Assembly: GCA_947499255.1 (NCBI GenBank)
Contig: CANMNF010000002.1
Span: 198,430 to 262,429 of the forward strand
From: an uncultured Sphingomonadaceae bacterium
GTDB lineage: Bacteria; Pseudomonadota; Alphaproteobacteria; Sphingomonadales; Sphingomonadaceae
Length of the DNA: 64,000 nucleotides
Direction: 5' to 3'
A program made the translations under genes and the position numbers. Below are positions 15,311 through 30,041 of the stretch, one piece after another (within the stretch, counting starts at the first letter, position 1; each line of letters opens with the position of its first letter). Under the pieces are notes generated by a model, which was given only the letters and a program-made list of their open reading frames with translations, did not search any database and was not told where the DNA came from.

Positions 15311-15988
15311 GTGAAGCTGCTATATATTGAGGACAATGCCGATGCGGCAGCTGATGTTACCGCGCTTTTGGCCCGTGCCGGCAGTCAGGTGGTGTGGGAA
15401 AAAGAAGGATCGGCGGGCCTGCGCCGTGCCGCTTTTGAACCGTTTGATGTCATCATCCTTGATCGCATGTTGCCCGATATGGACGGTTTGCAGATTGTTG
15501 AACGCCTGCGGTCAAGCGGCGTCGATGCGCCCGTGCTGATGCTGTCTGCTTTGGGCCGATCATCCAACCGGGTGGAAGGATTGGATGCAGGCGTCGATGA
15601 TTATCTCGCCAAGCCTTATGAGCCTGAAGAATTGATGGCGCGGTTAAAAGCGCTAGCGCGGCGTTCTGAAGGGCGCTCCCATTCCGCGATCTTCATTTAC
15701 GGCCAGTTTGAATGCCATGTAAAAGCGCGCACCGCATTCCGGCAAAACCAGCATATAGCGCTTAGCCCCAAAGAGTTTGAACTGTTCCGCTATTTCATGG
15801 AAAATGCAGGCGAGACGGTGACCCGCGATATGTTGCTGCGCGATGTGTGGGGGATGAATTTCGATCCGCAAACCAATGTGGTGGATGTCAATATCGGCAG
15901 GCTGCGCCGCAAGCTGGAACAAGGCTTTGAAAAACCGGCTTTGGAAACGATCTGGGGCAGCGGATACCGGTTGACGCAGGGCCATTGA
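15311..15988 (+). CDS. OmpR/PhoB-family response regulator
   Basis: A 225-residue two-domain regulator. The receiver domain has the acidic pocket at E7-D8, phospho-acceptor Asp51 in VIILDRMLPDMDG, a switch Ser in LMLSALG, and Lys in DYLAKPYEPEEL. The C-terminal winged-helix DNA-binding domain has LSPKEFELFRYFMENAGETVTRDMLL and ends VDVNIGRLRRKLE...WGSGYRL. The start is GTG behind a G-rich site. It is followed 33 bases later by its cognate kinase and then by a lipoprotein. Its targets cannot be told from sequence. Confidence 0.96.
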   Translation: MKLLYIEDNADAAADVTALLARAGSQVVWEKEGSAGLRRAAFEPFDVIILDRMLPDMDGLQIVERLRSSGVDAPVLMLSALGRSSNRVEGLDAGVDDYLAKPYEPEELMARLKALARRSEGRSHSAIFIYGQFECHVKARTAFRQNQHIALSPKEFELFRYFMENAGETVTRDMLLRDVWGMNFDPQTNVVDVNIGRLRRKLEQGFEKPALETIWGSGYRLTQGH

Positions 15989-16021
15989 TAATTGGGTGAT
16001 GAGTGACTGGAACTAGATCTC

Positions 16022-17389
16022 ATGCCGATTGAACCATCAGGTTCGCTGGTCAAGCGTTGGGTCCGCGCTGCCATTGGCATCACGGTGATCGCGCTTGGCC
16101 TGCTGCTGGCGGTCACCATCATGCAAAGCTGGCGCGCAAGTGAAAGCGCGCTATCGCAAGCCGTTGACACCGATATGGCAGGTCTGGTCGATATCTATGC
16201 CAGCGGCGGTTTGGATGAGCTGAAATTGCGGCTTGGGGATCGCACGGCTCTTGCCACGCTGGATGGGCGGCAACCGCATTATATGCTGGGTCAGGTGGGT
16301 GATCAGATCATCGTGGGTGATCAAGGCGGATGGCCGCCATTGTCTCCGACCAATTCCGAAGAAGGTTTTGTGACGCTGACCGATGGCACCAATGTCTATG
16401 CCCGCGCGACCCGGCTTGCTCCTGAGCTGGATCTGCTAGTGGCGCGCGAATATGCACCCGATACAGCCGCGATCCAGCGTTTGGCAGCGATTTTTCTGGC
16501 AACGGCAGGCGCGATTGTGCTGGTCGTATCGCTGCTGGGATGGAGTGTCGCCAAACGCTTGAGCAAGCGGATCACCACCATTAGCGGCGCGTTTCGCGAA
16601 GCTGAATTGGGCGGCGAACCCGTCCTTGATCAAAGCGCGCCGCGCGATGAAATCGATGTGCTGGCTGCGCATTCCAGCCGCGCAATCGCCCGCTGCGCTG
16701 CACTGGCACGCACACATCGGCATATGACAGATCACATCGCACATGAAATTCGCACACCTTTAACGCATTTGGAAAATCGGCTGGTCAGCTGGCAACGCGC
16801 GACGGACAATCCGGCTGAGCGTGAGACGTTTGAACGCGGGCGGCAGGATATCCGCTCTGTCGTCACCATGCTCGATTCCCTGCTTGATATCGCCGCCAGT
16901 GAAGCGCGCGTTGGTGATTGCACGGGGCTTAAGGATGTGAACCTGTCCGCTTTGGCCGAAAGTCTGGTGGAGCTTTATGAAGGCAGCGCGGAAGAAGCTG
17001 GCATAACCTTTCGCACCCAGATTGCGCCGGGTGTGGTGCTGCGCGGAGAACAGATGCAGCTGACGCGGCTGCTTTCCAACCTGCTCGACAATGCGTTGAA
17101 ATATGTGCCGCGCGGCGGCGAAGTGCGGCTGGTGATCGGTGCCGGGCCAGTGATCGCGGTGTCCGATAATGGTCCGGGTATAGAGGCGGCCTTGCGCCCC
17201 TTCGTGTTTGACAGGTTCCGCAGCGGCACGCCCAGCCAAGGCACCACCAGTCACGGCCTTGGTCTTGCTCTTGCCCGCGCGATTGCGCTGCGCCATGATA
17301 TGCGTATCGCCTTGATGGATAGCGATAAAGGCGCGCATTTTGTGATAAAGCCGCATGCGCTATGGGATCAGGAGGGGGACAGCGCATGA
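16022..17389 (+). CDS. Sensor histidine kinase, partner of the preceding regulator
   Basis: A 455-residue inner-membrane kinase. It has a transmembrane helix at about 14-34, a periplasmic sensor of roughly 110 residues, a second helix near 152-175, and a HAMP-type linker. The dimerisation domain has phospho-acceptor His at about residue 241 in HIAHEIRTPLTHLENR. The ATPase domain has the N box NLLDNALKYVPRGG, G1 box DNGPGIE and G2 box GLGLALARAI. The stop overlaps the start of the lipoprotein gene as ATGA. The signal sensed is unknown; the sensor domain is not a recognised named fold. Confidence 0.95.
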   Translation: MPIEPSGSLVKRWVRAAIGITVIALGLLLAVTIMQSWRASESALSQAVDTDMAGLVDIYASGGLDELKLRLGDRTALATLDGRQPHYMLGQVGDQIIVGDQGGWPPLSPTNSEEGFVTLTDGTNVYARATRLAPELDLLVAREYAPDTAAIQRLAAIFLATAGAIVLVVSLLGWSVAKRLSKRITTISGAFREAELGGEPVLDQSAPRDEIDVLAAHSSRAIARCAALARTHRHMTDHIAHEIRTPLTHLENRLVSWQRATDNPAERETFERGRQDIRSVVTMLDSLLDIAASEARVGDCTGLKDVNLSALAESLVELYEGSAEEAGITFRTQIAPGVVLRGEQMQLTRLLSNLLDNALKYVPRGGEVRLVIGAGPVIAVSDNGPGIEAALRPFVFDRFRSGTPSQGTTSHGLGLALARAIALRHDMRIALMDSDKGAHFVIKPHALWDQEGDSA

Positions 17390-17994
17390 ACGCAATTGCA
17401 CAAAAACGCATGATAACGGCGCTCGCTGCATCTTTGATGCTGGCCGGGTGCGCTGGCACGGCCAATTTGGCGTCGCATGCGCAAGCTGACATTGATCCGA
17501 TGGCCGATCCTTTGATCGCCAGCGATGATATGCTGACCAGCGCTGCTGCCCTATTGGTCGCAGCCCAGGCGGCTCCTGATGCTGCATCGCGCGCGCCGGT
17601 TATGGAGCGGCTTCTTGCTTTGAATGTGCAGCCTGCTGACGCGGCATCGGACAATCCGCTGGCCCAATGGCGTACAGCGCACGCGCCCTATGCTGGCACG
17701 CCTTATCGCGGGCGCACGCTTGGCCCCGCTTATCGCCGCGCAAATCTGGCGCCGGGGCAAATGATTGAAATCGCGCAGGTGTTTTACGCTGGCCGCCGTG
17801 CCGAAATGCGTGCGCAGGCCAATCGCAGCACTGTGGCGCTGGCTATCAACAATTCGCGCGATGAAGCGGTATGCCAGGCGCAGTTAAGCCCGCAGGCGCA
17901 ATGCCGCTGGTTGCCTTTGTTTACCGAACGCTTTGCGATCACACTGGAAAATACAGGCGATATGCCCGCCAGCGTCTATCTCGTATTTGAGTAG
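17386..17994 (+). CDS. Predicted lipoprotein coupled to the two-component system
   Basis: A 202-residue exported protein with a lipobox SLMLAGCAG. I chose the ATG that overlaps the kinase stop (ATGA) because a strong GGAGGGGG site lies just upstream. After an Ala-rich helical half comes a C-terminal part that looks beta-rich (residues ~118-202), with two Cys separated by eight residues in EAVCQAQLSPQAQCRWLP. I recognise no family. Tight coupling to the kinase suggests it takes part in sensing or is a co-regulated envelope factor; this is inference only. Confidence 0.75.
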   Translation: MNAIAQKRMITALAASLMLAGCAGTANLASHAQADIDPMADPLIASDDMLTSAAALLVAAQAAPDAASRAPVMERLLALNVQPADAASDNPLAQWRTAHAPYAGTPYRGRTLGPAYRRANLAPGQMIEIAQVFYAGRRAEMRAQANRSTVALAINNSRDEAVCQAQLSPQAQCRWLPLFTERFAITLENTGDMPASVYLVFE

Positions 17995-18314: not shown

Positions 18315-21300
18315 TCAGCGTGCTTGCGCGGCCAGATGCGCTTCGAGCATTTGCACCTGTTCGGCGCTGAACTGAATGCCGCTGGATTGCAAAGCATCCA
18401 CACCCGGCGCGGTGGCTACATCCGGCGCACCGTTTACGCTTGCACCATCGCTAACGCTCCAGCGATCCCAATCTGTACTTTGCGGCGCAGCCACAGCGAC
18501 CGTCCCGGTATTTGCCGTTGTCGTTGGAGCAGATCCTGGGACAGATCCTGTGGCAAATCCCGTGGCGGATCCCGTGGCACCGGCAGCTTCACGATCAAAG
18601 AAGATTGATCCTTCGGCAAAATTGCCTTGCTCGTTCAACGAGACACCAAGGCCAACTTGCTTGCCGCCGTCGCCAAAGACGAAACCGGCAACCGTGACGT
18701 TACAACCGCTGGTGCAATCCGCCGTGCCGCTGGGCACGATACTCGCGCCAAGGCTGCCGGAAAATGCGCCTTCGGTATCCACCAGCAGGACACTGTTGGA
18801 AGGATCAGCCACACCGCCGGAAGTCTCCGCTGTATATTCGCGCCCTCCAATCGCCAGATCCAGCTCAAGCCCAAGGCGCGGTGATGCAGGACCGTTGAAA
18901 ACCAGCGATGCGTCACCCGAAACGGTGCCTTCTTCGCCATCATTGTTGACCAGTTTGGTGCTGCCAATCTGTTCAAAATCGATGCGGCCGCTTGCAGGCA
19001 AATTGCTGACTTGTGTGCCGCCAAAGACATGGAAATCATCGAAGGCGCCATTGCGCGGTTGCCCCGGTGTTTGCCAGCGCGCCCAGACCATATCGCTGGC
19101 CCCGCCATTCTCAACCAGCATCCCTGTGCCACTGCTTAAATCAGCATCGCTGCCACGCAATTGGCTGGGATAGATTTCCAGAACGCCGTTATCGAGCGTG
19201 CTTGCCCCAGCGAACAAATCAAGCTGGCCGCCATTGGCAAAAGCTGTGCCGATCAGATCGGTCGTGCCGGTGAAGGCGGCAAGTCCGGTGGCCGCGCCAC
19301 CACCACTGCCAGGCATGGTGCCTTCAGGTGCATAAATCACAGCGCCTTGAATACGGGGCCGCGAAAAGCTGCCGGGGAAGATTTGATAGACAAAGCCTGC
19401 CCGCTCTTCAGGGTTTTCGCCACCGAAACCGCCATAAAAGGTGATGTTGCATCCCGACCCATCACAGCCGCGCCCTGTTCCGGTAACATCGCCTCGCATG
19501 ATGAAATCAGCTGGTCCTGGGCCTGCCACATTCAAATTGACGAAGTCACCATTGTCGAACCCCATCGAGGCAAACGCATAAGTCACATCTCCGCCAGCTT
19601 CAGGCATCACAATACTACCGTTGGTTTGATAGCGAAGCTGCGATCCGAACTGGACGCTCAGATTGCCGTTGAAAGTGCCTGGTGCCGATTCACCATTGTT
19701 GAACACAGGATCGGTGGCTGCATACACGACGTAATCGATCTGGCCGCTGGTCGGTAACGCATTCACCGATGGTGCAAGCACCACATAAGGCAGGCCATCA
19801 TTGATAGTGAAGTTGCTGGTGCCACCGCGGAATGTCGCCGTACCATCAGAGAAGCGTCCAACAACTGCGCTCGCATCGCCTGCAATATTGAATGCAGTCG
19901 CAGTTCCAGCAGCGAGATTGCCAGCGCTTACCAATGCGCCTGATCCATCAAGGGTCGGGCTTTCGCTGCCGGGCTGGCTGTTGCCGCCATCGGTGGCAAA
20001 GGCACGGCCCGTGGCATCAGGGAAACCGCCCAGATAGGTGTTCACAAGAGCACCCCCAGCGCCGGTATCGCCACTGCCATCGTCGTAAACACCATTACCA
20101 AAAATCGCCGCGCCGCTGATCTGTTGGCCAAAAGTGCCGTTTTGCGCGGTGTAGGTCAGGCCCAGCTCATTGATATCATCGCCTGCGAAATACCCGCCAA
20201 ACTGAATGACGCAGGTATTGTCGCAGCTATTGTCGCTGGTGGTGATTTGGGTGTCTGCAAACTGGAAGTTTACATTGCGGCCAAAGGTTACGCGGAATTC
20301 ACTATCGCTTTGCGATGGATCGGTGAGGCCACCGGTCGATGCAAAGCTGTAGACATAATCATCGCCAGCGGTTGGCAGCGTGATGCTGCCTTCCATGGCG
20401 ATGAAATTGGTTGCCCCGAACAGCACCGCCATATCCGCCTGGAATTGACCAGGAGCGAGCGAACCATCAGCGATGGTCGGAGCGGTGGCCGCGATCAGAT
20501 CATAATCTATGCGGCCCGTCGTGGGCACCATAAAGCTGCCCGTTGTCGGTGCGGCCAGCAGGTAATGGAACCCTTGCGCAGGCGTGAGAGTCGTCGTCTC
20601 AAACTGGTTGGCCGAGATATATTCGCCATCTGTCCAACGGCCAATCGCAAAGCGGGCATTGCTGGAGATATCCGTTACTTGCGCTGTACCGATGCTGCGC
20701 GGTTGGAAGCTGTCATCGATAGCTGTCACACCGTCATTATCGTTAAAAGTGGCGGTTGTCAGGCTAAAGCCATTGCCAACATTGCTTGGGCTGGAGAAGT
20801 TGAAATTCACCCCGGTTGTCCCGGCAAAATCCGTCGCATCGTTGAGCAATAGCGGGGTGCCGGTGGGTACCGGAACCTCCGGCGCAGTGCCCAGCCCGTC
20901 AATCGCGGTGCCGCCTGCCTGAAAAATCGCAACGCCTTGAATGCCATTGCCCACCCCGCGGTCGAGAATGTTGTAGGTAAAGCCGCCCGTTTCGCCGCCC
21001 TCGCCAAACAATCCGCCAAACACCTGCGCATTACAGAACCCTGTGCAGGTGGTGGCAGTGAGCCGTTCAAATGGCAGGTTGAGGTTTTCAAACGTACCAT
21101 CAGATCGCACGACAATGCCCCCGTTGGTCGGATCAGCTGCGCCGCCTGTGGTGCCGACACGGTAGCCTTCGGTTGCTGTCAGAACATCGAAGTTCAGGCC
21201 GACAAAGGCCGTCGATCCAAAAGCAACAGCCATCTCGCCATCGAAAAACTCTGTCGAGCCGGTAGCGCCAAGACGATTGGTCGGCTGCGTGCCGCCCACA

Positions 21301-24300
21301 AGCGCATAATTAACAACGCCCGAGGTTGGCAGATTGGTCGCCGGTGTGCCGACCAGCAAATGCTCGCTGACATTGGGGACGCTGTTAGGCCCATTGGTCA
21401 CGCCCACGAAATAGCGGGTCCAAGCTACATCGTTGCCGATGCGACCAAATTCGCGCAGGTCAGCATCGCGCGTCGAATAATCGGTGGTGACGGGATTGGG
21501 ATTGTAGAGCGTCATGCTGGTGATGCGGCCATCATCGGTAATCTCGGCATCGGCACGCGCCACACGCAGCGCGTCGGCGGCGAACTGCCAGCCATTGAGA
21601 TCGGCGAACATGTTCGTGAGACCATCCGGCAGACCGCCAAATTGATCAGGCACGCCGCCACCATTGATGAAGGCGAGGTAATCATTGAAGAACGTCAGCA
21701 CTTCGCCATCAAAAGTGCTCGCAAGCAGGCCAGCGCCTTGTAAAGCGGCGAGGTAATCCTCGACCTGCTGCGCGGTTAATCCGGTAAAGTCGCTAGGCAC
21801 ACCGCCGCCCAGCAAAAAGGCGTAGAACTGCGAGATAGCGGTCAGATATTCGGCATAGACCGGCAGACCCGCAAAATCCTCAGCATCGCCGCCACCCAGC
21901 ACAAATTGCGAATACGCGGCGAAAAAGCTGTTCAGCCCATTAAAGCTGTCCAGCCCGCCGGTCACATTCGTCAGCGCTGCCAGATAGGCCTCGATGGTCG
22001 CCTGATCGAGCGCCGTGTACTCGGCAGGCAGCCCACCGCCCGCAAGGAAAGCGAAGTAAGCGTTCAGCTGCGTCACATAGCCGGAATAGACCGGCAGGCC
22101 AGCGAAGGTCGCCGGATCGCCGCCGTTCAAAAGGAAGGTGATGTAGCTGTCGAAATTGCCGTTGAGACCGGCAAACGCGTCCAGCCCGCCCGTCACATTG
22201 GCGAGCGCTGCCAGATAGGCGTCAATTGTTGCCTGATTGAGGCCAGTGAAATCGCCGGGCAATCCGCCGCCTGCAAGGAAAGCGAAATAGGCGTTCAGCT
22301 GCGTCACGTAGCTGGCATAGACAGGCAAGCCTGCAAAGCGCGCCGGATCACCGCCGCCCAGAATAAAGGCGGCGTAATTGTCGGCAAACATGTCCAGATC
22401 ATCAAACGCGTCCAGCCCGCCTGAAACACCGTTCAATGCGGCCAGATATTGCGTGATAATCTGCTGCGACAGACCAGAGAAATCAGCTGGCAATCCGCCG
22501 CCTGCCAGAAAATCGAAATAGGCGTTCAGCTGGGTGACATAGTCCCCATAAATCGGAAGTTGCGCAAAGTTTTGCGGGTCATTGCCCGCGCCGATAAAGG
22601 CGAAATAATCGGCAAAGAAAGCCGCAGCATCGCCGCCAATCTGCAATTGGAACCCGCCAGCTGCATTCAACGCGGCGAGATAATCTGCGACCTGCGCCTC
22701 GCTCAGACCGGTAAAGTCATTGGGTAGCCCGCCATTGGCAAGAAACGTGAAATACGCCTGCAAATCGGTGGCATACCCTACATAAAGCGGCAGGTTGGGG
22801 AACAGATCAATGGCCCCGCCCTGTTCGATAAATGCAAAATACGCGGTCAACAGATCGGCATTCGCACCCAGCAAATTGTCAGTTTCCCCGGCTGTTTGCA
22901 GCGCGCTGACATAATTGGCCAGCACATCAAGATCGGTTGCAGTAAAGTCTGCTGGAAGCCCGCCATTGTTCAAAAACGCCGCATACGCATTCAACGCAGA
23001 GGCAAAGGCCGGGAAGTTGAGAACAGGCAGCCCGGTAAAGACATCGGGATTGCCCCCTGAGGCAAGGAAGGCCGCATAATCGGTGTAAAAACCGGCCAGA
23101 TCATCAAGGAACCGGCCCGTTACACCTTGCGCCTGCAAGGCTGCGATATAGCTTGCAATCTGTGTTTGCGTCAGCGGCTGATAAGCGCTGGGCTGACCAC
23201 CATTGAGCAGATAGGTATAATAGGCATCCAGATCGGTTGCGAAACCTGCAAACAGGTTGGCATTCAATCCCGCAAACGCATCAGGATCGCCGCCAGCTTG
23301 TACAAATGTCAGGTAATCTGCATAAAATCCGGCCTGATTTCCAAGAAACCGGTTGAGCAGGCCAGCGGTTTGCAATTGCTCCAGATACGCCTGCAAAGTG
23401 GCAAGGTCTGTCGCGGTAAAATCGCTTGGCAGATCGCCGTTTTGCAGGAACGCAAAATACGCGTTGAGATCGGTTGCAAAGCCAGCGAAGATATTCGCGT
23501 TGAGGCGGGCAAACGCGTCAGGATCGCCGCCACCTTGTACAAAGGCGAGATATTCAGCGTAAAAATCCGCTTGTTCGCCAAGAAACGCCTGGAACAATCC
23601 AGAAGCCTGCAATTGCTCAAGGTAAGCTTGCAGGAGATCAGGATCTGTAGCGGCAAATTCGCTGGGCAGATTGCCGCTTTGCAAAAATGCGAAATAGGCA
23701 TTGAGCGCTTCTTCAAATTCACGCGCAAAACCAAGCCCACCATTGGCGTTGAACGCCGCCAGCAGCGTTTGATCGGCAGCGCTCAATTGTTGTTGAAGCC
23801 CACTGGCTGCAAGGAAAGCGATGTAATCGTTGAGCAAGCTTTGTGATGCGCCAGCGAAATTATCGGGATCACCGCCGCCGCGCACGAATGTGAAATAGGC
23901 GTTCACAAGCCCGGTGAAAGTGGTGGCAAAGCCATCAACATCGCCGCCGCTCGCCAGGAAAGCGAGATAGCGATCGGCAAGCACTTGGTCCGCCGCTGCC
24001 AGATCGTTGAACGCGCCTGTGCGGCCAGAAAAGGCCAGAAACGCGTTGATATCGGTGATCGAGGCTGCGCCAAAATCGGAAGGCAAGCCGCCATCGCGGA
24101 TCAAATCAAGATATTGGGTAAGGAACCCTGCATAAGTGGTAAGAAAGCTAGCACCCGAACCACCATCAGCCAAAAAGCCCAGATAGGTGCGGATGATATC
24201 TGCCTGTGCGGCGGGAAAAGGCGTGCCGCCATTAAGCCCTTCAAGATCCGCAGCTGCTGCCACCAGCAAAGCAAGATCGCCGGTTGGAAATGTATCAAGC

Positions 24301-24986
24301 GAAGGATTGCCCGCCGCCAGATCAACACTACGCGCTGCTCCCAGAATATCGGAGGACGCCCCCGCTGCCGCCAAAGCATCACCCAAGGACACGGGCAATC
24401 CATTTTGCGCAGCAGCCACCGGGCCGCCTTCGCTCAGATCAGCGACTTCAACTTGCCGCTCACGCTCGCCAGCATCTTGCGGCGTTGGCGCAGGGGCGGT
24501 GTTTGCGACCACTTGGCGAAGACCGCGCCGGCCTGAGCTTTCCCAAAATTCACCGGCGCGAAATTCGCGTTCAGACCGGCCACGCATCACGCGCGAGGTG
24601 CCCGTAATGGCATGGCCCGCGCTATCGCCATTGTCGGCAACAGTGAAGGAGGCAGAGCTGTCCGCGCCGCTAACAAAGCCTTGCGCGCCATCGGGCATGG
24701 AAATGGTTGCGGTGCCATTGGGCGCGCCGGATACGGTGACAGAGCCTGAGAACAGCTCCACCGAACCATCGGCATTGATCTGATATTCAGCGCCATCCAC
24801 AAAAGAGAGCATCGCGCCGTTATCAAGCTTGATCTGCGTCAAGCCAGAGGCTTGCGTCACACGTTCACCAATCTCAACTTGCGCTTGGCCTGCATTGGAA
24901 AAGATCACTTCGGCAGCTTGCGCCGAATGTGTGCCCAGCGCGATGGCTGAGGCGGTTACGAGGAGGGTTGCGGTCTTGCGGGTCAT
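18315..24986 (-). CDS. Giant FecR-domain repeat protein with four barrel-like C-terminal modules
   Basis: An exported protein of about 2,223 residues. A signal peptide ends SAQA-AE with no lipobox Cys. Residues ~22-145 resemble a FecR-type domain (IGERVTQASGLTQIKLDNGA, then LFSGSVTVSG and FVSGADSSASFTV). Residues ~265-1120 hold about 32 copies of a ~27-residue motif of the form YFAFLxxGGxPxxF. Residues ~1140-2180 hold four modules of about 250 residues. Each module has an LPTSGxIxY strand pattern, a Cys pair (CTGFC, CDNTC, CDGSGC, CTSGC) and then G-x-F-x-G...G...G-x-x-x-F/Y, reminiscent of TbpB-type eight-strand barrels. I chose the third ATG of an ATG-ATG-ATG run because GGGGAG is correctly spaced; the first in-frame ATG overlaps the upstream TPR-barrel gene stop (TGATG). 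Probably a secreted or surface client of that barrel protein. Function unknown. Confidence 0.85.
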   Translation of the reverse strand: MTRKTATLLVTASAIALGTHSAQAAEVIFSNAGQAQVEIGERVTQASGLTQIKLDNGAMLSFVDGAEYQINADGSVELFSGSVTVSGAPNGTATISMPDGAQGFVSGADSSASFTVADNGDSAGHAITGTSRVMRGRSEREFRAGEFWESSGRRGLRQVVANTAPAPTPQDAGERERQVEVADLSEGGPVAAAQNGLPVSLGDALAAAGASSDILGAARSVDLAAGNPSLDTFPTGDLALLVAAAADLEGLNGGTPFPAAQADIIRTYLGFLADGGSGASFLTTYAGFLTQYLDLIRDGGLPSDFGAASITDINAFLAFSGRTGAFNDLAAADQVLADRYLAFLASGGDVDGFATTFTGLVNAYFTFVRGGGDPDNFAGASQSLLNDYIAFLAASGLQQQLSAADQTLLAAFNANGGLGFAREFEEALNAYFAFLQSGNLPSEFAATDPDLLQAYLEQLQASGLFQAFLGEQADFYAEYLAFVQGGGDPDAFARLNANIFAGFATDLNAYFAFLQNGDLPSDFTATDLATLQAYLEQLQTAGLLNRFLGNQAGFYADYLTFVQAGGDPDAFAGLNANLFAGFATDLDAYYTYLLNGGQPSAYQPLTQTQIASYIAALQAQGVTGRFLDDLAGFYTDYAAFLASGGNPDVFTGLPVLNFPAFASALNAYAAFLNNGGLPADFTATDLDVLANYVSALQTAGETDNLLGANADLLTAYFAFIEQGGAIDLFPNLPLYVGYATDLQAYFTFLANGGLPNDFTGLSEAQVADYLAALNAAGGFQLQIGGDAAAFFADYFAFIGAGNDPQNFAQLPIYGDYVTQLNAYFDFLAGGGLPADFSGLSQQIITQYLAALNGVSGGLDAFDDLDMFADNYAAFILGGGDPARFAGLPVYASYVTQLNAYFAFLAGGGLPGDFTGLNQATIDAYLAALANVTGGLDAFAGLNGNFDSYITFLLNGGDPATFAGLPVYSGYVTQLNAYFAFLAGGGLPAEYTALDQATIEAYLAALTNVTGGLDSFNGLNSFFAAYSQFVLGGGDAEDFAGLPVYAEYLTAISQFYAFLLGGGVPSDFTGLTAQQVEDYLAALQGAGLLASTFDGEVLTFFNDYLAFINGGGVPDQFGGLPDGLTNMFADLNGWQFAADALRVARADAEITDDGRITSMTLYNPNPVTTDYSTRDADLREFGRIGNDVAWTRYFVGVTNGPNSVPNVSEHLLVGTPATNLPTSGVVNYALVGGTQPTNRLGATGSTEFFDGEMAVAFGSTAFVGLNFDVLTATEGYRVGTTGGAADPTNGGIVVRSDGTFENLNLPFERLTATTCTGFCNAQVFGGLFGEGGETGGFTYNILDRGVGNGIQGVAIFQAGGTAIDGLGTAPEVPVPTGTPLLLNDATDFAGTTGVNFNFSSPSNVGNGFSLTTATFNDNDGVTAIDDSFQPRSIGTAQVTDISSNARFAIGRWTDGEYISANQFETTTLTPAQGFHYLLAAPTTGSFMVPTTGRIDYDLIAATAPTIADGSLAPGQFQADMAVLFGATNFIAMEGSITLPTAGDDYVYSFASTGGLTDPSQSDSEFRVTFGRNVNFQFADTQITTSDNSCDNTCVIQFGGYFAGDDINELGLTYTAQNGTFGQQISGAAIFGNGVYDDGSGDTGAGGALVNTYLGGFPDATGRAFATDGGNSQPGSESPTLDGSGALVSAGNLAAGTATAFNIAGDASAVVGRFSDGTATFRGGTSNFTINDGLPYVVLAPSVNALPTSGQIDYVVYAATDPVFNNGESAPGTFNGNLSVQFGSQLRYQTNGSIVMPEAGGDVTYAFASMGFDNGDFVNLNVAGPGPADFIMRGDVTGTGRGCDGSGCNITFYGGFGGENPEERAGFVYQIFPGSFSRPRIQGAVIYAPEGTMPGSGGGAATGLAAFTGTTDLIGTAFANGGQLDLFAGASTLDNGVLEIYPSQLRGSDADLSSGTGMLVENGGASDMVWARWQTPGQPRNGAFDDFHVFGGTQVSNLPASGRIDFEQIGSTKLVNNDGEEGTVSGDASLVFNGPASPRLGLELDLAIGGREYTAETSGGVADPSNSVLLVDTEGAFSGSLGASIVPSGTADCTSGCNVTVAGFVFGDGGKQVGLGVSLNEQGNFAEGSIFFDREAAGATGSATGFATGSVPGSAPTTTANTGTVAVAAPQSTDWDRWSVSDGASVNGAPDVATAPGVDALQSSGIQFSAEQVQMLEAHLAAQAR
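21640..24197 (-). repeat. Coding repeats: ~32 copies of a YFAFL-GGG-type motif
   Basis: Within the giant gene a motif Tyr-x-x-Phe-Leu-x-x-Gly-Gly-x-x-x-x-Phe recurs about every 25-28 residues. In the 3' half the copies fall into triplets (for example YFAFLAGGGLPADF, YLAALANVTGGLDAF, YITFLLNGGDPATF), giving a super-repeat of about 77 residues or 231 bases. The DNA of neighbouring super-repeats near 22034-22540 is nearly identical, pointing to recent internal duplication. Copies toward the N-terminus are more diverged. The motif spacing suggests a helical solenoid, which is inference. Confidence 0.85.
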
Positions 24987-25000
24987 CATCATTCTCCCCA

Positions 25001-26305
25001 TCAGAACTCAAACCGCAGGCCAGCCGAAGCCGTCCAGCGATCGTAGTCATACAGTGCGATATTGCTCCAATTGCGCGTGTAAGTGGCGCGCGGCTGGAAA
25101 AAGAAATTGCCGACAAGCTGAACTTTCAGCCCGCCTTGCAGGTCGAGGCGTTCATCTGCGCGGTCCACCAAGAACAGCGCATCGGGCGCATCATATCGGC
25201 GCAGATCAAAGCTTGCGCCTGCCACCACCGCAACACGCTGTGACACGGGCAATTCGGTGCCGATAGAAGCGCTGGTAAACCAGTTGGAGAAATTGTCCCC
25301 TGCCTGGCGAAGCGTTTCTTCCTTGCCGCCTTGGATGGTGGCTGAAAGGTTGCGGGTAACAAGGCCAACAGCCACAGCCACACGGTCTGCATCAAGATTG
25401 GGCTGACCATCGAAATCAAGGCGATTATATTGCGCCGATACGGTGATCGCTTTGGTCGTTGAAACTGCCTTTGTATATTGCGCGATTGCACCATAGCTGT
25501 TGCGAAAACCATCCCCATCCAGCCGGAAATGCTGCGCTTGTGCCGATAACGAAATGACATCGCGATTGGCAAAGCTGTGCGCATAGCCAACAGTGCCCGT
25601 CAGGCTGGCCTGATCAAAATCACTGGTGTTGAGATTTTCGCGCCAATTGCCCAGCACAGAGGCAAACAGCCGATCTTGCCGGCCAACCGCTGTAACACCT
25701 GAAATACCTGCGCCAATTTCTGCAAATTCGTCATCGGTAGCGCGCGCATTGGCGCCCAGATTACCGGGGCCCAGGAATGAGAAAAGCGGGATGGTGATTT
25801 GCGTCAGATCGGTGGCCGCGTTCACATTGCTATCATGTCCGCCGCGCGCATCGATAAAGCCTGAAACATTGCTGCCTCCGCCCGAAATCTGCTCATCAAA
25901 CTGGCGTACAAAGCCGGTGAAGCGTTGGCGGACGGGATCAGGCAGGCTGGGATCATCTACCACAGTGGCAAACTGATCGCGCGCAGTATCGATATCGCCT
26001 GCCATCGCATAGGCGCGGGCCAGCTCGGCACGGGCAGCGGCATTTTCGGGCTGCACAGCCAGCACACGTTGGAGCGCGATGATCGCCTCGCCATATCGGC
26101 CACTATCAATTGCAGCGATAGCCAGCGCATAATCAAATTGCGGATCGCCAGCGTTTGTAGCCGCTTGCGGGGCGAGCGCCTGATAAGCTTGCTCGGCCTG
26201 CGCCGCGTTGCCTGATTGCTGCGCCTGAGCGGTTGCCGGCAAGCTTGCCAGAACCGCCCCTGAAATTGCAGCAAATACACCGTATTGCCATGCCGAACGT
26301 CGCAT
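25001..26305 (-). CDS. TPR plus outer-membrane beta-barrel protein, SLAM/DUF560-like
   Basis: A 434-residue exported protein with a signal peptide ending ATAQA-QQ and TPR-like helices at about residues 30-125 (DSGRYGEAIIALQRVLAVQPENAAARAELARAYAMAGDIDTA). The remaining ~280 residues are alternating beta-strands, ending in an LRFEF terminal strand with C-terminal Phe, the hallmark of BAM-inserted barrels. This TPR-then-barrel layout is that of surface lipoprotein assembly modifier (SLAM) proteins, the outer-membrane part of type XI secretion. The ATG was chosen for its signal peptide and G-rich site; about 49 upstream codons look non-coding. Its stop overlaps the first possible start of the giant gene (TGATG). 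The partner role is inferred. Confidence 0.8.
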   Translation of the reverse strand: MRRSAWQYGVFAAISGAVLASLPATAQAQQSGNAAQAEQAYQALAPQAATNAGDPQFDYALAIAAIDSGRYGEAIIALQRVLAVQPENAAARAELARAYAMAGDIDTARDQFATVVDDPSLPDPVRQRFTGFVRQFDEQISGGGSNVSGFIDARGGHDSNVNAATDLTQITIPLFSFLGPGNLGANARATDDEFAEIGAGISGVTAVGRQDRLFASVLGNWRENLNTSDFDQASLTGTVGYAHSFANRDVISLSAQAQHFRLDGDGFRNSYGAIAQYTKAVSTTKAITVSAQYNRLDFDGQPNLDADRVAVAVGLVTRNLSATIQGGKEETLRQAGDNFSNWFTSASIGTELPVSQRVAVVAGASFDLRRYDAPDALFLVDRADERLDLQGGLKVQLVGNFFFQPRATYTRNWSNIALYDYDRWTASAGLRFEF

Positions 26306-26501
26306 CCCTTGCCCCCAAAAACCTTTATCGGTGACCAAGGGCTTAGCGCAATTGACTACGCGATTGTCCTGACAAGAAGCGTATTGGACGTGACAGAACC
26401 TGTTAGGTTTCCATATAAAACAAGTATTTGGCGCAACCATATTGGTGCACAAAAACCCATTGCGCTTGCCTGATGCGCCGCGCCGGGTAAGGCGGAGCGT
26501 T

Positions 26502-29500
26502 ATGACTGGCAGTTATCGTTTTGCAATTGATCGCGGCGGCACGTTCACCGATGTCGTGGCGCAATTGCCCGATGGCGAGCTGGTCACCGCAAAGCTGCTT
26601 TCCAGCGATCCTGCGCATTATGAAGATGCCGCCAGCGAAGCGGTGCGGCGCATTGTGGAACAGCATGGCGATGCGCCCATTGCTGAGCTGCGCATTGGCA
26701 CAACAATCGCCACCAACGCCTTGCTCGAACGCGAGGGGGAGCCTTGCGCGCTGGCGATTACGGCGGGGCACCGCGATGCGCTTGCCATCGGCAATCAGGC
26801 GCGGCCCGATATTTTCGCGCGCCATATTGTAAAGCCCGAACGGCTCGAAAGCGCGGTCGTTGAAATCACCGAGAGAGTAAGCGCAAAAGGCGATATCCTC
26901 GTCAGCCTTGATGAAGCCACCGCGCGCCGCGATTTCGCGCAGCTTTTGCAACAAGGCTACCGCGCCATCGCCATCATCTTGCTGCATGGCTGGAAATATA
27001 CAGACCACGAAGCGCGCCTTGCCGCGTTAGCGCGCGATATGGGTTTTGCGCAGGTCAGCGTCAGCCATGAGGTCGCGCCGTTGATTAAGCTGGTGCCGCG
27101 CGGCGATACCTGTGTGGCAGATGCGTATCTCTCACCCGTGATCCGCGCCTATGTCGAACAGCTGGCCACACGCGTTCCCAAAACTGGCACTTCCCCGCCC
27201 ACTTTGCGCTTTATGCAAAGCAATGGCGGTTTGGCCGATGCGGCTGCTTTTCGCGGCAAGGATGCGGTGCTTTCCGGTCCGGCAGGCGGCGTTGTGGGCA
27301 TGGCGCAAACGGCAGCTCAGCTTGGCTTCGAAAAGGTAATCGGCTTTGATATGGGCGGGACCAGCACCGATGTCGCGCATTACGCTGGCGAGTATGAGCG
27401 CACCGGCGATAGCGTGGTCGCAGGTATCCGCATTGCTGCCCCGATGATGCACATTCACACCGTTGCAGCGGGCGGCGGATCGATCTGCCGCTTTGATGGA
27501 TCGCGCCTGCTGGTGGGTCCGCAAAGCGCGGGCGCGGATCCGGGGCCAGCCTGTTATCGCAAAGGCGGCCCGCTGACTTTAACCGATTGCAATCTGGCGC
27601 TGGGCCGCATTGATCCTGCCCAATTTCCGCATGTCTTCGGCGTCGGTGCGGACGAACCGCTCGATCCCAAAGCATCCATCGCGCGGCTGGAGGAGGTCGC
27701 TGCGCAATTGCCCGATGCGATGAGCGCGCAGCAGCTTGCCGAGGGATTTCTGGCCATTGGCGTTGATGCGATGGCCAAAGCGATCAGCCGAGTAAGCACC
27801 GCGCGCGGGCTGGACCCTTCCACCCATGCGCTGGCCTGTTTTGGCGGCGCAGGCGGGCAATTTGCCTGCTGCGTGGCGGATGAGCTGGGGATCGAAACGG
27901 TGCTGGTCCATCCGCTGGCCGGGATGCTGTCTGCTTATGGCATTGGCCTTGCCCCGCTTGTGGCGATGCGCGAAGTCAGCCTTGTTCAGCCATTGGAGCA
28001 GTCCTGCGATGAAGCGCTGTCAGACCTGCAAGATGCCGCGCGCGATGCGTTGATCGAACAGGGCATTACACAGCGCGACATCACGCTTACCGCGCGCATG
28101 AAACTGCGCTTTGCTGGCAGTGATACAGCGCTCACTTTACCCTTTGCCGCACCGCAATCAGCCGCCTCCACTTTCCGCCAAGAGCATCGCCAACGCTTTG
28201 GCTGGTCAGACGATAGCGCGCCGATTTTTCTGGAAGCGCTCAGCGTTGAAGCATCGGGAAATAGCGGCGGCCTGCACACGGCAAAGCTGGCCCATGCAAA
28301 GCGCGACGAATTGGGTGCGGGCGAGGTTTTGCAAGGCCCCGCCACTATTGCCGATCCGGGCTCCACCACTATTGTCGAACCCGGCTGGCAGGCGAGATGT
28401 GCTGTTGATGGATCGCTTATCCTCACCCGCGCAGTGCCGCGCGAAATGCGCCATGCCGCGGGCACCAAGGTTGATCCTGTTCGCCTTGAAATCTTCAACA
28501 ATCTGTTCATGGCGATTGCTGAGGAAATGGGTGTTGTCCTCGAAGCGACGGCCAGCTCTGTCAATATCAAGGAGCGGCTCGATTTCTCCTGCGCGATCTT
28601 TGATGGCGAAGGCGCACTGATAGCCAATGCGCCGCATATTCCGGTGCATCTGGGCTCCATGGGTGACAGCGTGCGACATATTATCGCCCAGCGTGACAAT
28701 AGCGGCCAAGGCAGCGGCGATGCTCGCGGGATCTTGCGCGGTGATGCCTATGTGCTGAACGATCCTTATCATGGCGGGACGCATCTGCCCGATGTCACCG
28801 TGATCGTGCCGGTGTTTTTGAACGATCACGACGCGCCGCACGCCCGGCCACAAGCTTATGTCGCAGCGCGCGGGCATCATGCCGATATTGGCGGCATCGC
28901 GCCCGGCTCCATGCCGCCTGACAGCACCGATATCGCGCAAGAAGGCGTCCGGCTAAACAATGTACTGTTGGTGGATGAGGGGCGCTTTTGTGAGCGCGAA
29001 TTGCGCGATTTGTTGAGTGCAGGCGATTATCCAGCGCGCCAGCCGGATCGCAATATCGCCGATCTGCGCGCACAATTGGCCGCCTGCGCAAGAGGCGAGC
29101 AGCTGCTCGGCGATGCCGCGCGTGATTTTGGCAGCGATGTGCTTACCGCCTATATGGGCCATGTGATGGACAATGGCGAAGCCGCTGTGCGCAAGCTTTT
29201 GCGCGGATTGGCGCCGGGGCGCTTCACCTATCCGATGGACAATGGTGCCAAGGTTTGTGTGGCCATCACAACGGATCGTGAAACCGGCAGCGCGACTTTC
29301 GATTTTACAGGGACAAGCGATCAGCTGGCAGGCAATTTCAATGCCCCGCGCGCCATCACCCGCGCTGCTGTTTTGTATGCCTTGCGCTGTTTGATCGATG
29401 ATCCGATGCCATTAAATGATGGGTGCCTGCGCCCTGTCACCATGCGTATTCCCGAAGGCTCGATGCTTGCGCCTATGCCGCCCGCCGCAGTTGTCGCAGG

Positions 29501-30041
29501 CAATGTGGAAACAAGCCAGGTGGTAACAGAAGCAATCCTTGCCGCCACGCGCCGCCTTGCCCCGGCACAAGGCACGATGAACAATTTCACCTTTGGCGAT
29601 GCGACCCGGCAATATTATGAAACGATCGCTGGCGGATCAGGCGCAGGCCCGGATCACCCCGGCACCGACGGCGTGCAAACGCATATGACCAATAGCCGCC
29701 TGACCGATCCCGAAGTTCTGGAAACGCGCCTGCCCGTGCGTGTGGACAGCTTCGCCATTCGCCCCTGCTCCGGCGGATCAGGCGCGCAGCATGGCGGCAA
29801 TGGGGTTGAGCGCAAGCTGACCTTCTTAGAGCCGATGCGTGCGCAAATCCTTGCCAATCGCCGCCTTGTGCCGCCGCGCGGTTTGGCCGGAGGCGGCGAT
29901 GCCTTGGCCGGCGCGACCTTTGTGATCCGTGCCGATGGCCGCAAAGAGATGCTCGGCTCTACCGATGCCGCCGATATGGCGCGCGGCGATGCGATTGTGA
30001 TCTGCACACCGGGCGGTGGCGGTTTTGGCCGAATGAACTAG
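26502..30041 (+). CDS. 5-oxoprolinase / hydantoinase, fused A and B subunits
   Basis: A 1,179-residue ATP-dependent amidohydrolase of the HyuA-HyuB family. The A half begins FAIDRGGTFTDVVAQ and contains GTTIATNALLER, SGPAGGVVGMAQ and DMGGTSTDVAH, the actin-like ATP-binding motifs. The B half starts at about residue 650 with the pattern VRLEIFNNLFMAIAEEMG and includes SxNIKERLDFSCAIFD, NDPYHGGTHLPDVT and a C-terminal GGSGAQHGGNG. Fused A-B proteins of this length open 5-oxoproline, but related enzymes act on hydantoins or lactams. The ATG has GGAG six bases upstream. It heads a catabolic cluster, so the true substrate may not be 5-oxoproline. Confidence 0.9.
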   Translation: MTGSYRFAIDRGGTFTDVVAQLPDGELVTAKLLSSDPAHYEDAASEAVRRIVEQHGDAPIAELRIGTTIATNALLEREGEPCALAITAGHRDALAIGNQARPDIFARHIVKPERLESAVVEITERVSAKGDILVSLDEATARRDFAQLLQQGYRAIAIILLHGWKYTDHEARLAALARDMGFAQVSVSHEVAPLIKLVPRGDTCVADAYLSPVIRAYVEQLATRVPKTGTSPPTLRFMQSNGGLADAAAFRGKDAVLSGPAGGVVGMAQTAAQLGFEKVIGFDMGGTSTDVAHYAGEYERTGDSVVAGIRIAAPMMHIHTVAAGGGSICRFDGSRLLVGPQSAGADPGPACYRKGGPLTLTDCNLALGRIDPAQFPHVFGVGADEPLDPKASIARLEEVAAQLPDAMSAQQLAEGFLAIGVDAMAKAISRVSTARGLDPSTHALACFGGAGGQFACCVADELGIETVLVHPLAGMLSAYGIGLAPLVAMREVSLVQPLEQSCDEALSDLQDAARDALIEQGITQRDITLTARMKLRFAGSDTALTLPFAAPQSAASTFRQEHRQRFGWSDDSAPIFLEALSVEASGNSGGLHTAKLAHAKRDELGAGEVLQGPATIADPGSTTIVEPGWQARCAVDGSLILTRAVPREMRHAAGTKVDPVRLEIFNNLFMAIAEEMGVVLEATASSVNIKERLDFSCAIFDGEGALIANAPHIPVHLGSMGDSVRHIIAQRDNSGQGSGDARGILRGDAYVLNDPYHGGTHLPDVTVIVPVFLNDHDAPHARPQAYVAARGHHADIGGIAPGSMPPDSTDIAQEGVRLNNVLLVDEGRFCERELRDLLSAGDYPARQPDRNIADLRAQLAACARGEQLLGDAARDFGSDVLTAYMGHVMDNGEAAVRKLLRGLAPGRFTYPMDNGAKVCVAITTDRETGSATFDFTGTSDQLAGNFNAPRAITRAAVLYALRCLIDDPMPLNDGCLRPVTMRIPEGSMLAPMPPAAVVAGNVETSQVVTEAILAATRRLAPAQGTMNNFTFGDATRQYYETIAGGSGAGPDHPGTDGVQTHMTNSRLTDPEVLETRLPVRVDSFAIRPCSGGSGAQHGGNGVERKLTFLEPMRAQILANRRLVPPRGLAGGGDALAGATFVIRADGRKEMLGSTDAADMARGDAIVICTPGGGGFGRMN

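Follow-up and report, generated by a model that had tools for sequence, protein, structure and literature searches.

According to PMC12282271, every one of the seven type XI outer-membrane proteins with experimental verification belongs to an animal-associated cluster. TbpB and fHbp, which pair with Slam1 and Slam2, are lipoproteins of pathogens with two lobes or one barrel. Haemophilin/HrpC, which pairs with HrpB, is a soluble type XI cargo of roughly 240 aa (PDB chains) and has a handle, one eight-strand barrel and a SlipAM/TPR exporter. Multi-barrel cargo with two to three handle-barrel pairs has already been described from Sphingomonas under the name 'Sphingomonas surface proteins' (PMC12282271; Sphingomonadaceae subcluster 1C in PMC8406197).

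The DNA analysed here (the window, 64,000 nucleotides from an uncultured Sphingomonadaceae bacterium) carries a gene pair that, within Sphingomonadales, appears to be a new and larger variant of type XI secretion. The two genes very probably constitute a type XI (SLAM-like) secretion pair, one encoding an outer-membrane export gate and the other a lipid-free, presumably exported cargo. This reading, already made in the first-pass annotation, proved largely right and is based on exporter homology, the predicted fold of one cargo module and co-occurrence of the genes. The pair has the exporter family and predicted module fold of TbpB and fHbp with their Slams, but its cargo has no lipobox. With haemophilin/HrpC it shares a SlipAM/TPR exporter and a cargo built on handle and barrel that is probably not lipidated; it differs in having four modules in 2,228 aa, and no TonB or TonB-dependent receptor was found among the 10 neighbouring window proteins scanned. 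The features of the locus are as follows.

25001..26305, minus strand: exporter gene; 434 aa with a signal peptide, TPR repeats and an outer-membrane barrel of SlipAM/DUF560 type
18315..25001, minus strand: cargo gene; 2,228 aa if read from the first ATG, but probably starting at codons 4-6, near 24992
24912..25001, minus strand: signal peptide of the cargo, with an AQA cleavage site and without cysteine (translation, by eye)
24510..24908, minus strand: predicted FecR/PupR-type beta domain, residues 32-164 (AlphaFold2 model and Foldseek)
21672..24434, minus strand: helical repeat stalk, roughly residues 190-1110, repeat length about 77 aa (autocorrelation and partial model)
20913..21611, minus strand: module 1, handle plus barrel; barrel profile residues 1223-1364 (profile, model, Foldseek)
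20094..20864, minus strand: module 2; barrel profile residues 1492-1636 (profile only)
19320..20093, minus strand: module 3; barrel profile residues 1749-1894 (profile only)
18588..19319, minus strand: module 4, C-terminal, presumed export signal; barrel profile residues 2000-2138 (profile only)
18318..18587, minus strand: C-terminal tail with WDRW...GIQFS motif, a type found in 9 of 51 cargo proteins
15311..15988, plus strand: OmpR-type response regulator, convergent neighbour
16022..17389, plus strand: sensor histidine kinase, convergent neighbour
17362..17994, plus strand: predicted lipoprotein of about 210 aa (LAGC, by eye), convergent neighbour

Gene order and the putative exporter

Both genes lie on the minus strand and adjoin each other, at the coordinates first assigned to them. 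The 434 aa of the exporter are counted from the ATG at 26305; the open frame extends upstream to a TTG at 26452, but the stop-to-stop frame of the ortholog in one relative (L071) starts at the Met equivalent to ATG 26305. The exporter stop and the first cargo ATG do share the sequence TGATG, which had been taken as an overlap of the two genes. Just downstream, however, inspection by eye reveals GGGGAGA followed by three consecutive ATG codons (cargo codons 4-6, near 24992); the true cargo start is therefore probably there, leaving the genes close without overlapping. From this start the cargo would have 2,223-2,225 aa. Of the 52 ORFs next to an exporter, 43 received a start from a simple pattern (a wrong one in L133), and 40 of these 43 starts fall between a 1 nt overlap and a 35 nt gap.

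The description of the exporter as a TPR-plus-barrel protein was borne out: TPR_16 and TPR_19 score above their Pfam cut-offs, as does SlipAM (PF04575, DUF560), the latter as a borderline pass from ATG 26305 (22.1 bits, cut-off 22) and just under the cut-off with the longer upstream frame (21.7 bits). The specific TPR_Slam model (23.7 bits, cut-off 35.2) and DUF2860 (17.1 bits, cut-off 22.9) stay below threshold. The TPR domain is N-terminal and would lie in the periplasm. The assignment to a SLAM/DUF560-like family is upheld by alignment of the exporter family with seven SlipAM exporters from relatives (hhalign 99.95%, E 2e-37, 382 columns). All seven match SlipAM, and for six of them a TbpB_B_D gene lies no more than about 4 kb away on that contig; four of these neighbours were examined protein by protein. 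A PF04575 search of the window's own genome gave no match at E<=0.001, but as control genomes were equally without a match, this result carries little weight.

At E<=0.01, SlipAM matches 8 of 13 exporter orthologs (best 1.5e-5), DUF2860 11 (best 5.5e-6), OMP_b-brl 10 and BBP2_2 6, so Pfam alone is not decisive on the family. An unrelated porin is nevertheless unlikely, given the SlipAM score and the alignment to the seven SlipAM exporters. A related question is whether the exporter homologue translocates this cargo at all, as the large protein could be a periplasmic FecR-repeat protein and the barrel a porin-like partner or anchor. In favour of this, DUF2860 and other barrel models hit the orthologs roughly as frequently as SlipAM does; against it, the barrel protein aligns along its length with SlipAM exporters.

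As obligate parts of the system, the convergent two-component system and lipoprotein were rejected, since the kinase (E<=1e-50) occurs in 26 of 296 genomes and only 8 of 13 exporter genomes. At 10 loci carrying the regulator-kinase-lipoprotein trio there was no exporter, cargo, module or N-domain match nearby. At the thresholds applied, the predicted lipoprotein falls into neither a Pfam nor an NCBIfam family.

Domains of the cargo protein

The signal peptide of the cargo, read by eye, ends in ...SAQA before AEV and contains no cysteine, in agreement with the original observation that a lipobox is missing. A pattern located the signal region in 39 of 53 cargo ORFs, and one relative (L127) has a lipobox-like LVGC there.

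The N-terminal beta domain is predicted to have the fold of the FecR/PupR periplasmic domain. Its AlphaFold2 model (moderate confidence) matched 4m0h, 4m0n and 6ovk in Foldseek (probability 1.00, E 2e-4 to 4e-4), and a profile of the domain matches 51 of 52 cargo ORFs. The FecR-type N-terminus proposed earlier thus stands as a predicted fold but not as a Pfam assignment: Pfam FecR matches 1 of 12 N-domains (E 3e-4), and not that of the window (alignments have 12 rows, with the N-terminal piece of G001, L069, left out). The cargo has this predicted fold in common with FecR/PupR anti-sigma factors; unlike in these, the domain follows a signal peptide and is joined to a stalk and handle-barrel modules. 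FecR domains usually reside in the periplasm, which favours the reading as a periplasmic FecR-repeat protein; against it, module 1 is predicted to have the fold of proteins exported by type XI gates.

The repeat stalk was recovered as an autocorrelation peak at 77 residues and is helical in the AlphaFold2 model up to residue 591, the remainder being known by its sequence repeat only. A Phage_int_SAM_1 match to the cargo (35.8 bits for the whole protein, cut-off 22.3) lies within the repeats, with no single stretch passing, and was taken as a repeat artefact.

Four matches of a profile built from the cargo family itself locate the four C-terminal modules that had been proposed. The fold predicted for these tail units, from module 1 as the one modelled, is that of iron- and haem-binding surface proteins from pathogens. 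Its AlphaFold2 model (pLDDT 88.7) has a seven-strand handle, then eight main strands behind residue 118, in line with the eight-strand barrel expected for this module; the 'four barrels' are better described as four handle-barrel pairs. All 33 Foldseek matches at E<=1e-3 belong to cargo known from type XI systems, namely TbpB, haemophilin/HphA or fHbp (two, 9clt_B and 9dc4_B, taken as TbpB by chain length), compared with none at that threshold in a viral structure library searched for contrast. TM-scores by query length of 0.31-0.47 and rmsd of 6-15 A indicate that the match is one of parts and their order, not of one rigid body.

The suggested check with Pfam TbpB_B_D came out negative, with 0 of 49 modules matching, and the same search of the window's genome gave no match. 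In the PDB, a sequence search with the whole cargo had no match at E<=1 and one with the module profile a single chance-like match (E 0.087). Alignment of the module profile to 16 TbpB_B_D modules of relatives (one of 17 loci, L091, left out) gave 80% and E 1.4e-5 over a short stretch of 35 columns. With TbpB_B_D negative, the link of the modules to type XI cargo rests on fold, partner and context.

The pair might also be covered already by the published Sphingomonas surface proteins. Both come from Sphingomonadales, with a SlipAM exporter beside a cargo that has several handle-barrel pairs, and proline-threonine-rich stalks like theirs occur in 7 of 53 cargo ORFs of the window family (PT count over all 53). 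PMC12282271, however, characterises that class by PT repeats and by two to three pairs, and its members were identified through their resemblance to known cargo; the window cargo, at 2,228 aa, combines a FecR-fold N-domain with a helical stalk and four pairs, whose barrels Pfam TbpB_B_D does not detect. The term 'FecR' is absent from the main text of PMC12282271. Coverage by the published class is considered unlikely. The claim that no example of this architecture has been characterised must be narrowed, as multi-barrel Sphingomonas cargo (two to three pairs) was already described there.

Conservation of the pair

In a set of 99 genomes, exporter and cargo were found in the same 13, the window's own included. 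Among 296 genomes of Sphingomonadales (E<=1e-60 for the exporter, E<=1e-6 for modules), 13 have the exporter and 11 the modules; 11 have both, two the exporter only and none modules only (Fisher p 2.5e-18, relatedness ignored). Of the two exporter-only genomes, one (G300) has a truncated exporter and in the other (G303) the contig ends just inside the cargo gene. Cargo without exporter was thus seen in 0 of 13 and 0 of 11 genomes in the two sets. None of the three findings that the first-pass annotation named as refuting its reading (an unrelated porin family, modules without an eight-strand fold, cargo genes regularly without the exporter) was encountered. G003 and G007 hold short exporter-like fragments without cargo (54% across 73 residues and 43% across 64, respectively).

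An ORF lies next to the exporter at 52 of 55 named loci, and 50 of these 52 carry one to five modules; the other two run off their contigs. L120 and L129, cut by contig ends, are not counted among complete cargo. The presence of modules in every such ORF not cut by a contig end also counts against a periplasmic FecR-repeat protein with a porin-like partner, for which the chance now seems slim. The pair is not a chance association, because it is kept across many genera. The 'giant' client of the first-pass annotation is real at 2,228 aa, but stands at the long end of a family whose shortest members have one module in about 800 aa, as in the 814-aa frame of Rhizorhabdus histidinilytica. Culturable relatives with the pair include Alteraurantiacibacter aestuarii and Erythrobacter longus.

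Proposed route of export and its implications

In the type XI reading, Sec would take the cargo across the inner membrane, and the signal peptide would be cut off without lipidation. In the periplasm the exporter would recognise the handle-barrel modules, the C-terminal one first, and these would cross the outer membrane via the exporter barrel, as TbpB, fHbp and haemophilin do. Outside the cell, four modules would sit at the end of a helical stalk with the FecR-like domain at its N-terminus; the modules might attach to ligands or surfaces, with the FecR-like domain perhaps keeping the fibre at the envelope. Route, direction and C-terminal signal are proposed by analogy with known type XI systems. 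The C-terminal tail was ruled out as a universal export signal, as 25 of 51 cargo proteins stop <=11 aa after the last module match.

As a sub-case of this type XI reading, the cargo may stay threaded or plugged in the exporter, with the C-terminal modules outside and the FecR-like domain inside as an anchor or sensor. Found in 51 of 52 cargo ORFs, the domain lies at the N-terminus and would exit last if the C-terminal barrel leads; it is similar to the signalling domain that PupR-type anti-sigma factors have in the periplasm. Such an arrangement is quite improbable, given that no sigma factor was found among the 10 neighbouring window proteins scanned and that HrpC, a soluble type XI cargo, is reported in PMC8406197 to occur mainly in the soluble fraction of cultures. 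Very doubtful, too, is a further idea, that the cargo is an outer-membrane-spanning sensor, its modules passed out through the SLAM-like gate on the stalk while the periplasmic FecR/PupR-like domain reports ligand capture or exporter occupancy, perhaps via the neighbouring two-component system or lipoprotein. If true, this would turn a type XI cargo into a signalling receptor.

Under the preferred reading as a type XI secretion pair, this locus provides a clear test of the size limit for soluble proteins at the SLAM gate, and of the last barrel alone as signal. The results suggest that surveys based on TbpB_B_D undercount cargo. They point to a version of type XI secretion that is distributed across many sphingomonad genera, with a far longer cargo that the usual Pfam test misses and that has exchangeable stalks (helical or proline-threonine) and one to five modules.

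The probable exporter and its family

The exporter and cargo genes lie adjacent on one strand, as the first-pass annotation described:

26305-25001, minus strand: exporter gene, 434 aa, with signal peptide, TPR repeats and a predicted outer-membrane barrel
25001-18315, minus strand: cargo gene, 2,228 aa, with signal peptide (as claimed earlier) and without a lipobox

The exporter stop and the first ATG of the cargo share TGATG, although by eye three ATG codons behind GGGGAGA are likelier cargo starts than this first ATG.

The barrel protein had been proposed to be a SLAM-like (DUF560) exporter. Read from its ATG, it reached 22.1 bits with Pfam SlipAM (cut-off 22) and 17.1 with DUF2860 (cut-off 22.9); it cleared the cut-offs of two Pfam TPR models, and TPR_Slam stayed under its cut-off in the Pfam scan. 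When 13 exporter orthologs were scanned singly (E ≤ 0.01), SlipAM was matched by 8, DUF2860 by 11, OMP_b-brl by 10 and BBP2_2 by 6, so single Pfam models are not decisive for the exporter family. DUF2860, which matched more orthologs than SlipAM, had a best E of 5.5e-6 in the orthologs (alignment A6), and SlipAM and DUF2860 may be related barrel families.

Clearer is a profile of the 13 orthologs set against seven more distant exporters of relatives (382 columns, 99.95%, E = 2e-37), which agrees with the original proposal. All seven match SlipAM and TPR_Slam. Six are accompanied on their contig by a TbpB_B_D gene at a distance of up to about 4 kb; the seventh belongs to the related genome G067, where the TbpB_B_D match sits on another contig. 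Four of the neighbour genes, scanned as proteins, contain 3, 2, 1 and 4 TbpB_B_D stretches. By eye, several TbpB_B_D neighbours show PT repeats together with a signal of the lipoprotein type, and in this they resemble the Sphingomonas surface proteins described in PMC12282271. Subcluster 1C, according to PMC8406197, holds many Sphingomonadaceae exporters. In genome G047, four TbpB_B_D matches lie close together (C2:631017-634858) in open frames of 331-372 aa, possibly a cargo array.

Architecture of the proposed cargo

With a profile derived from the cargo proteins, four modules were located in the window cargo, each presumably a handle plus a barrel and numbered 1 to 4 toward the C-terminus, and three or four in each of 11 related proteins. 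The cargo of the related genome G001 is in two pieces, a separate C-terminal piece with four modules and an N-terminal piece, cut by the contig end, with none. Counted per protein, window included, one module occurs in 3 proteins, two in 10, three in 24, four in 13 and five in 1.

The proposed match of the modules to TbpB_B_D was not found with Pfam (0 of 49 modules scanned). The eight-strand barrel proposed for them is consistent with the predicted structure of module 1 (mean pLDDT 88.7), in which a seven-strand handle precedes eight main strands. All 33 Foldseek matches of this model at E ≤ 1e-3 are TbpB, haemophilin/HphA or fHbp (9clt_B and 9dc4_B being assigned to TbpB by chain length), the known type XI cargo families. 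Matches to other proteins begin at rank 46 (E = 2.3e-3), and comparison with viral proteins gave no matches at E ≤ 1e-3. TM-scores by query length were 0.31-0.47, indicating that handle and barrel agree only partly or in different relative placement. The module profile matched 16 TbpB_B_D modules of relatives at 80% (E = 1.4e-5, 35 columns).

When 152 modules were placed on a quick tree, last versus other positions required 19 changes (200 shuffles: mean 42.5, minimum 36), as did first versus other positions (counted without shuffles). Last modules are thus in part a kind of their own, a pattern expected if an export signal resides there; shared descent of whole genes would give the same pattern. 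The closest modules to window modules 1-4 are in four different loci (64, 71, 73 and 52% identity), a mosaic that suggests exchange or unequal loss. The C-terminal tail after the last barrel occupies 18318-18587 in the window. Two tail types, GIQFS and LGGxITF, recur among the window cargo and its relatives; among 51 cargo proteins, 25 end ≤ 11 aa past the last module match, 9 have GIQFS-type, 16 LGGxITF-type and 1 another tail.

The FecR-type N-terminus proposed earlier is favoured by the predicted fold, whereas Pfam FecR is matched by only 1 of 12 cargo members. Residues 32-591 are modelled as a beta domain followed by helices (mean pLDDT 74.6, pTM 0.48), and the four Foldseek matches at E ≤ 1e-3 are a putative Parabacteroides anti-sigma factor (three chains) and PupR. 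The repeat stalk was confirmed, with a period of about 77 residues. An N-domain profile matches the cargo ORF in 51 of 52 named loci; in the exception, locus L146, the N-terminal part is encoded in a different frame. Of 53 cargo ORFs, seven (loci L133, L138, L148, L149, L155, L157 and L158) contain 28-53 PT dipeptides, in stretches that largely or wholly replace the helical stalk (six of the seven PT-rich cargo sequences inspected) and link the window cargo family to published Sphingomonas surface proteins.

Co-occurrence and neighbouring genes

Close orthologs of the exporter (E below 1e-100) are present in 13 of 99 genomes, the window's own among them, and the cargo is present in exactly those 13. 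The two adjoin in 12 relatives and the window; the G001 cargo reaches the contig end. Two further genomes lack cargo but have short stretches resembling the exporter: G003 with 54% over 73 residues and G007 with 43% over 64. Across the order (296 genomes), the exporter (E ≤ 1e-60) was found in 13 and modules (E ≤ 1e-6) in 11, with both in 11 and modules alone in none (Fisher p = 2.5e-18, relatedness ignored), bearing out the co-occurrence expected across Sphingomonadales. In the two exporter-only genomes, the exporter is truncated (G300, 178 of 437 positions) or the contig stops just inside the cargo gene (G303). Scanning named genomes yielded 55 exporter loci, 12 of them taken to be those of the 12 relatives, in Erythrobacter, Sphingopyxis, Novosphingobium, Sphingomonas, Rhizorhabdus, Pacificimonas and others. 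An ORF follows the exporter in 52 of the 55 and has 1-5 modules in 50; the other two leave the contig.

The pair is flanked by:

15311-17994, plus strand: conserved trio of OmpR-type regulator, histidine kinase and predicted lipoprotein (LAGC by eye, about 210 aa, matching no Pfam or NCBIfam family at the thresholds applied), convergent to the cargo
26442-30041, plus strand: fused hydantoinase/oxoprolinase A-B gene, divergent from the exporter and with no evident link to the pair

In retrieved flanks of the 55 named loci, the regulator was matched (E ≤ 1e-8) in 44, the kinase in 43 and the lipoprotein in 36; identity is below 50% for six of these 44 regulator matches, and these six may belong to other pairs. 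Of the 296 genomes, 26 carry the kinase (E ≤ 1e-50): 8 of the 13 with the exporter and 18 of the 283 others (Fisher p = 1.1e-6). Ten of the 18 kinase loci from exporter-less genomes were retrieved; all ten have the trio and none has exporter, cargo, module or N-domain matches nearby. The trio is therefore not an obligate part of the pair but a frequent neighbour, and perhaps a regulator.

Proposed export

Type XI is a known class of system; searches of subscription-free main texts on type XI, SLAM, DUF560, FecR and sphingomonads turned up no account of this architecture. Transport of the cargo, its direction and its ligand are all inferred. From homology, predicted fold and pairing, the exporter would move a lipid-free cargo by type XI export, with the C-terminal barrel acting as the export signal. 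The FecR-like domain might, at a guess that fits its N-terminal position, be an envelope anchor or a sensor.
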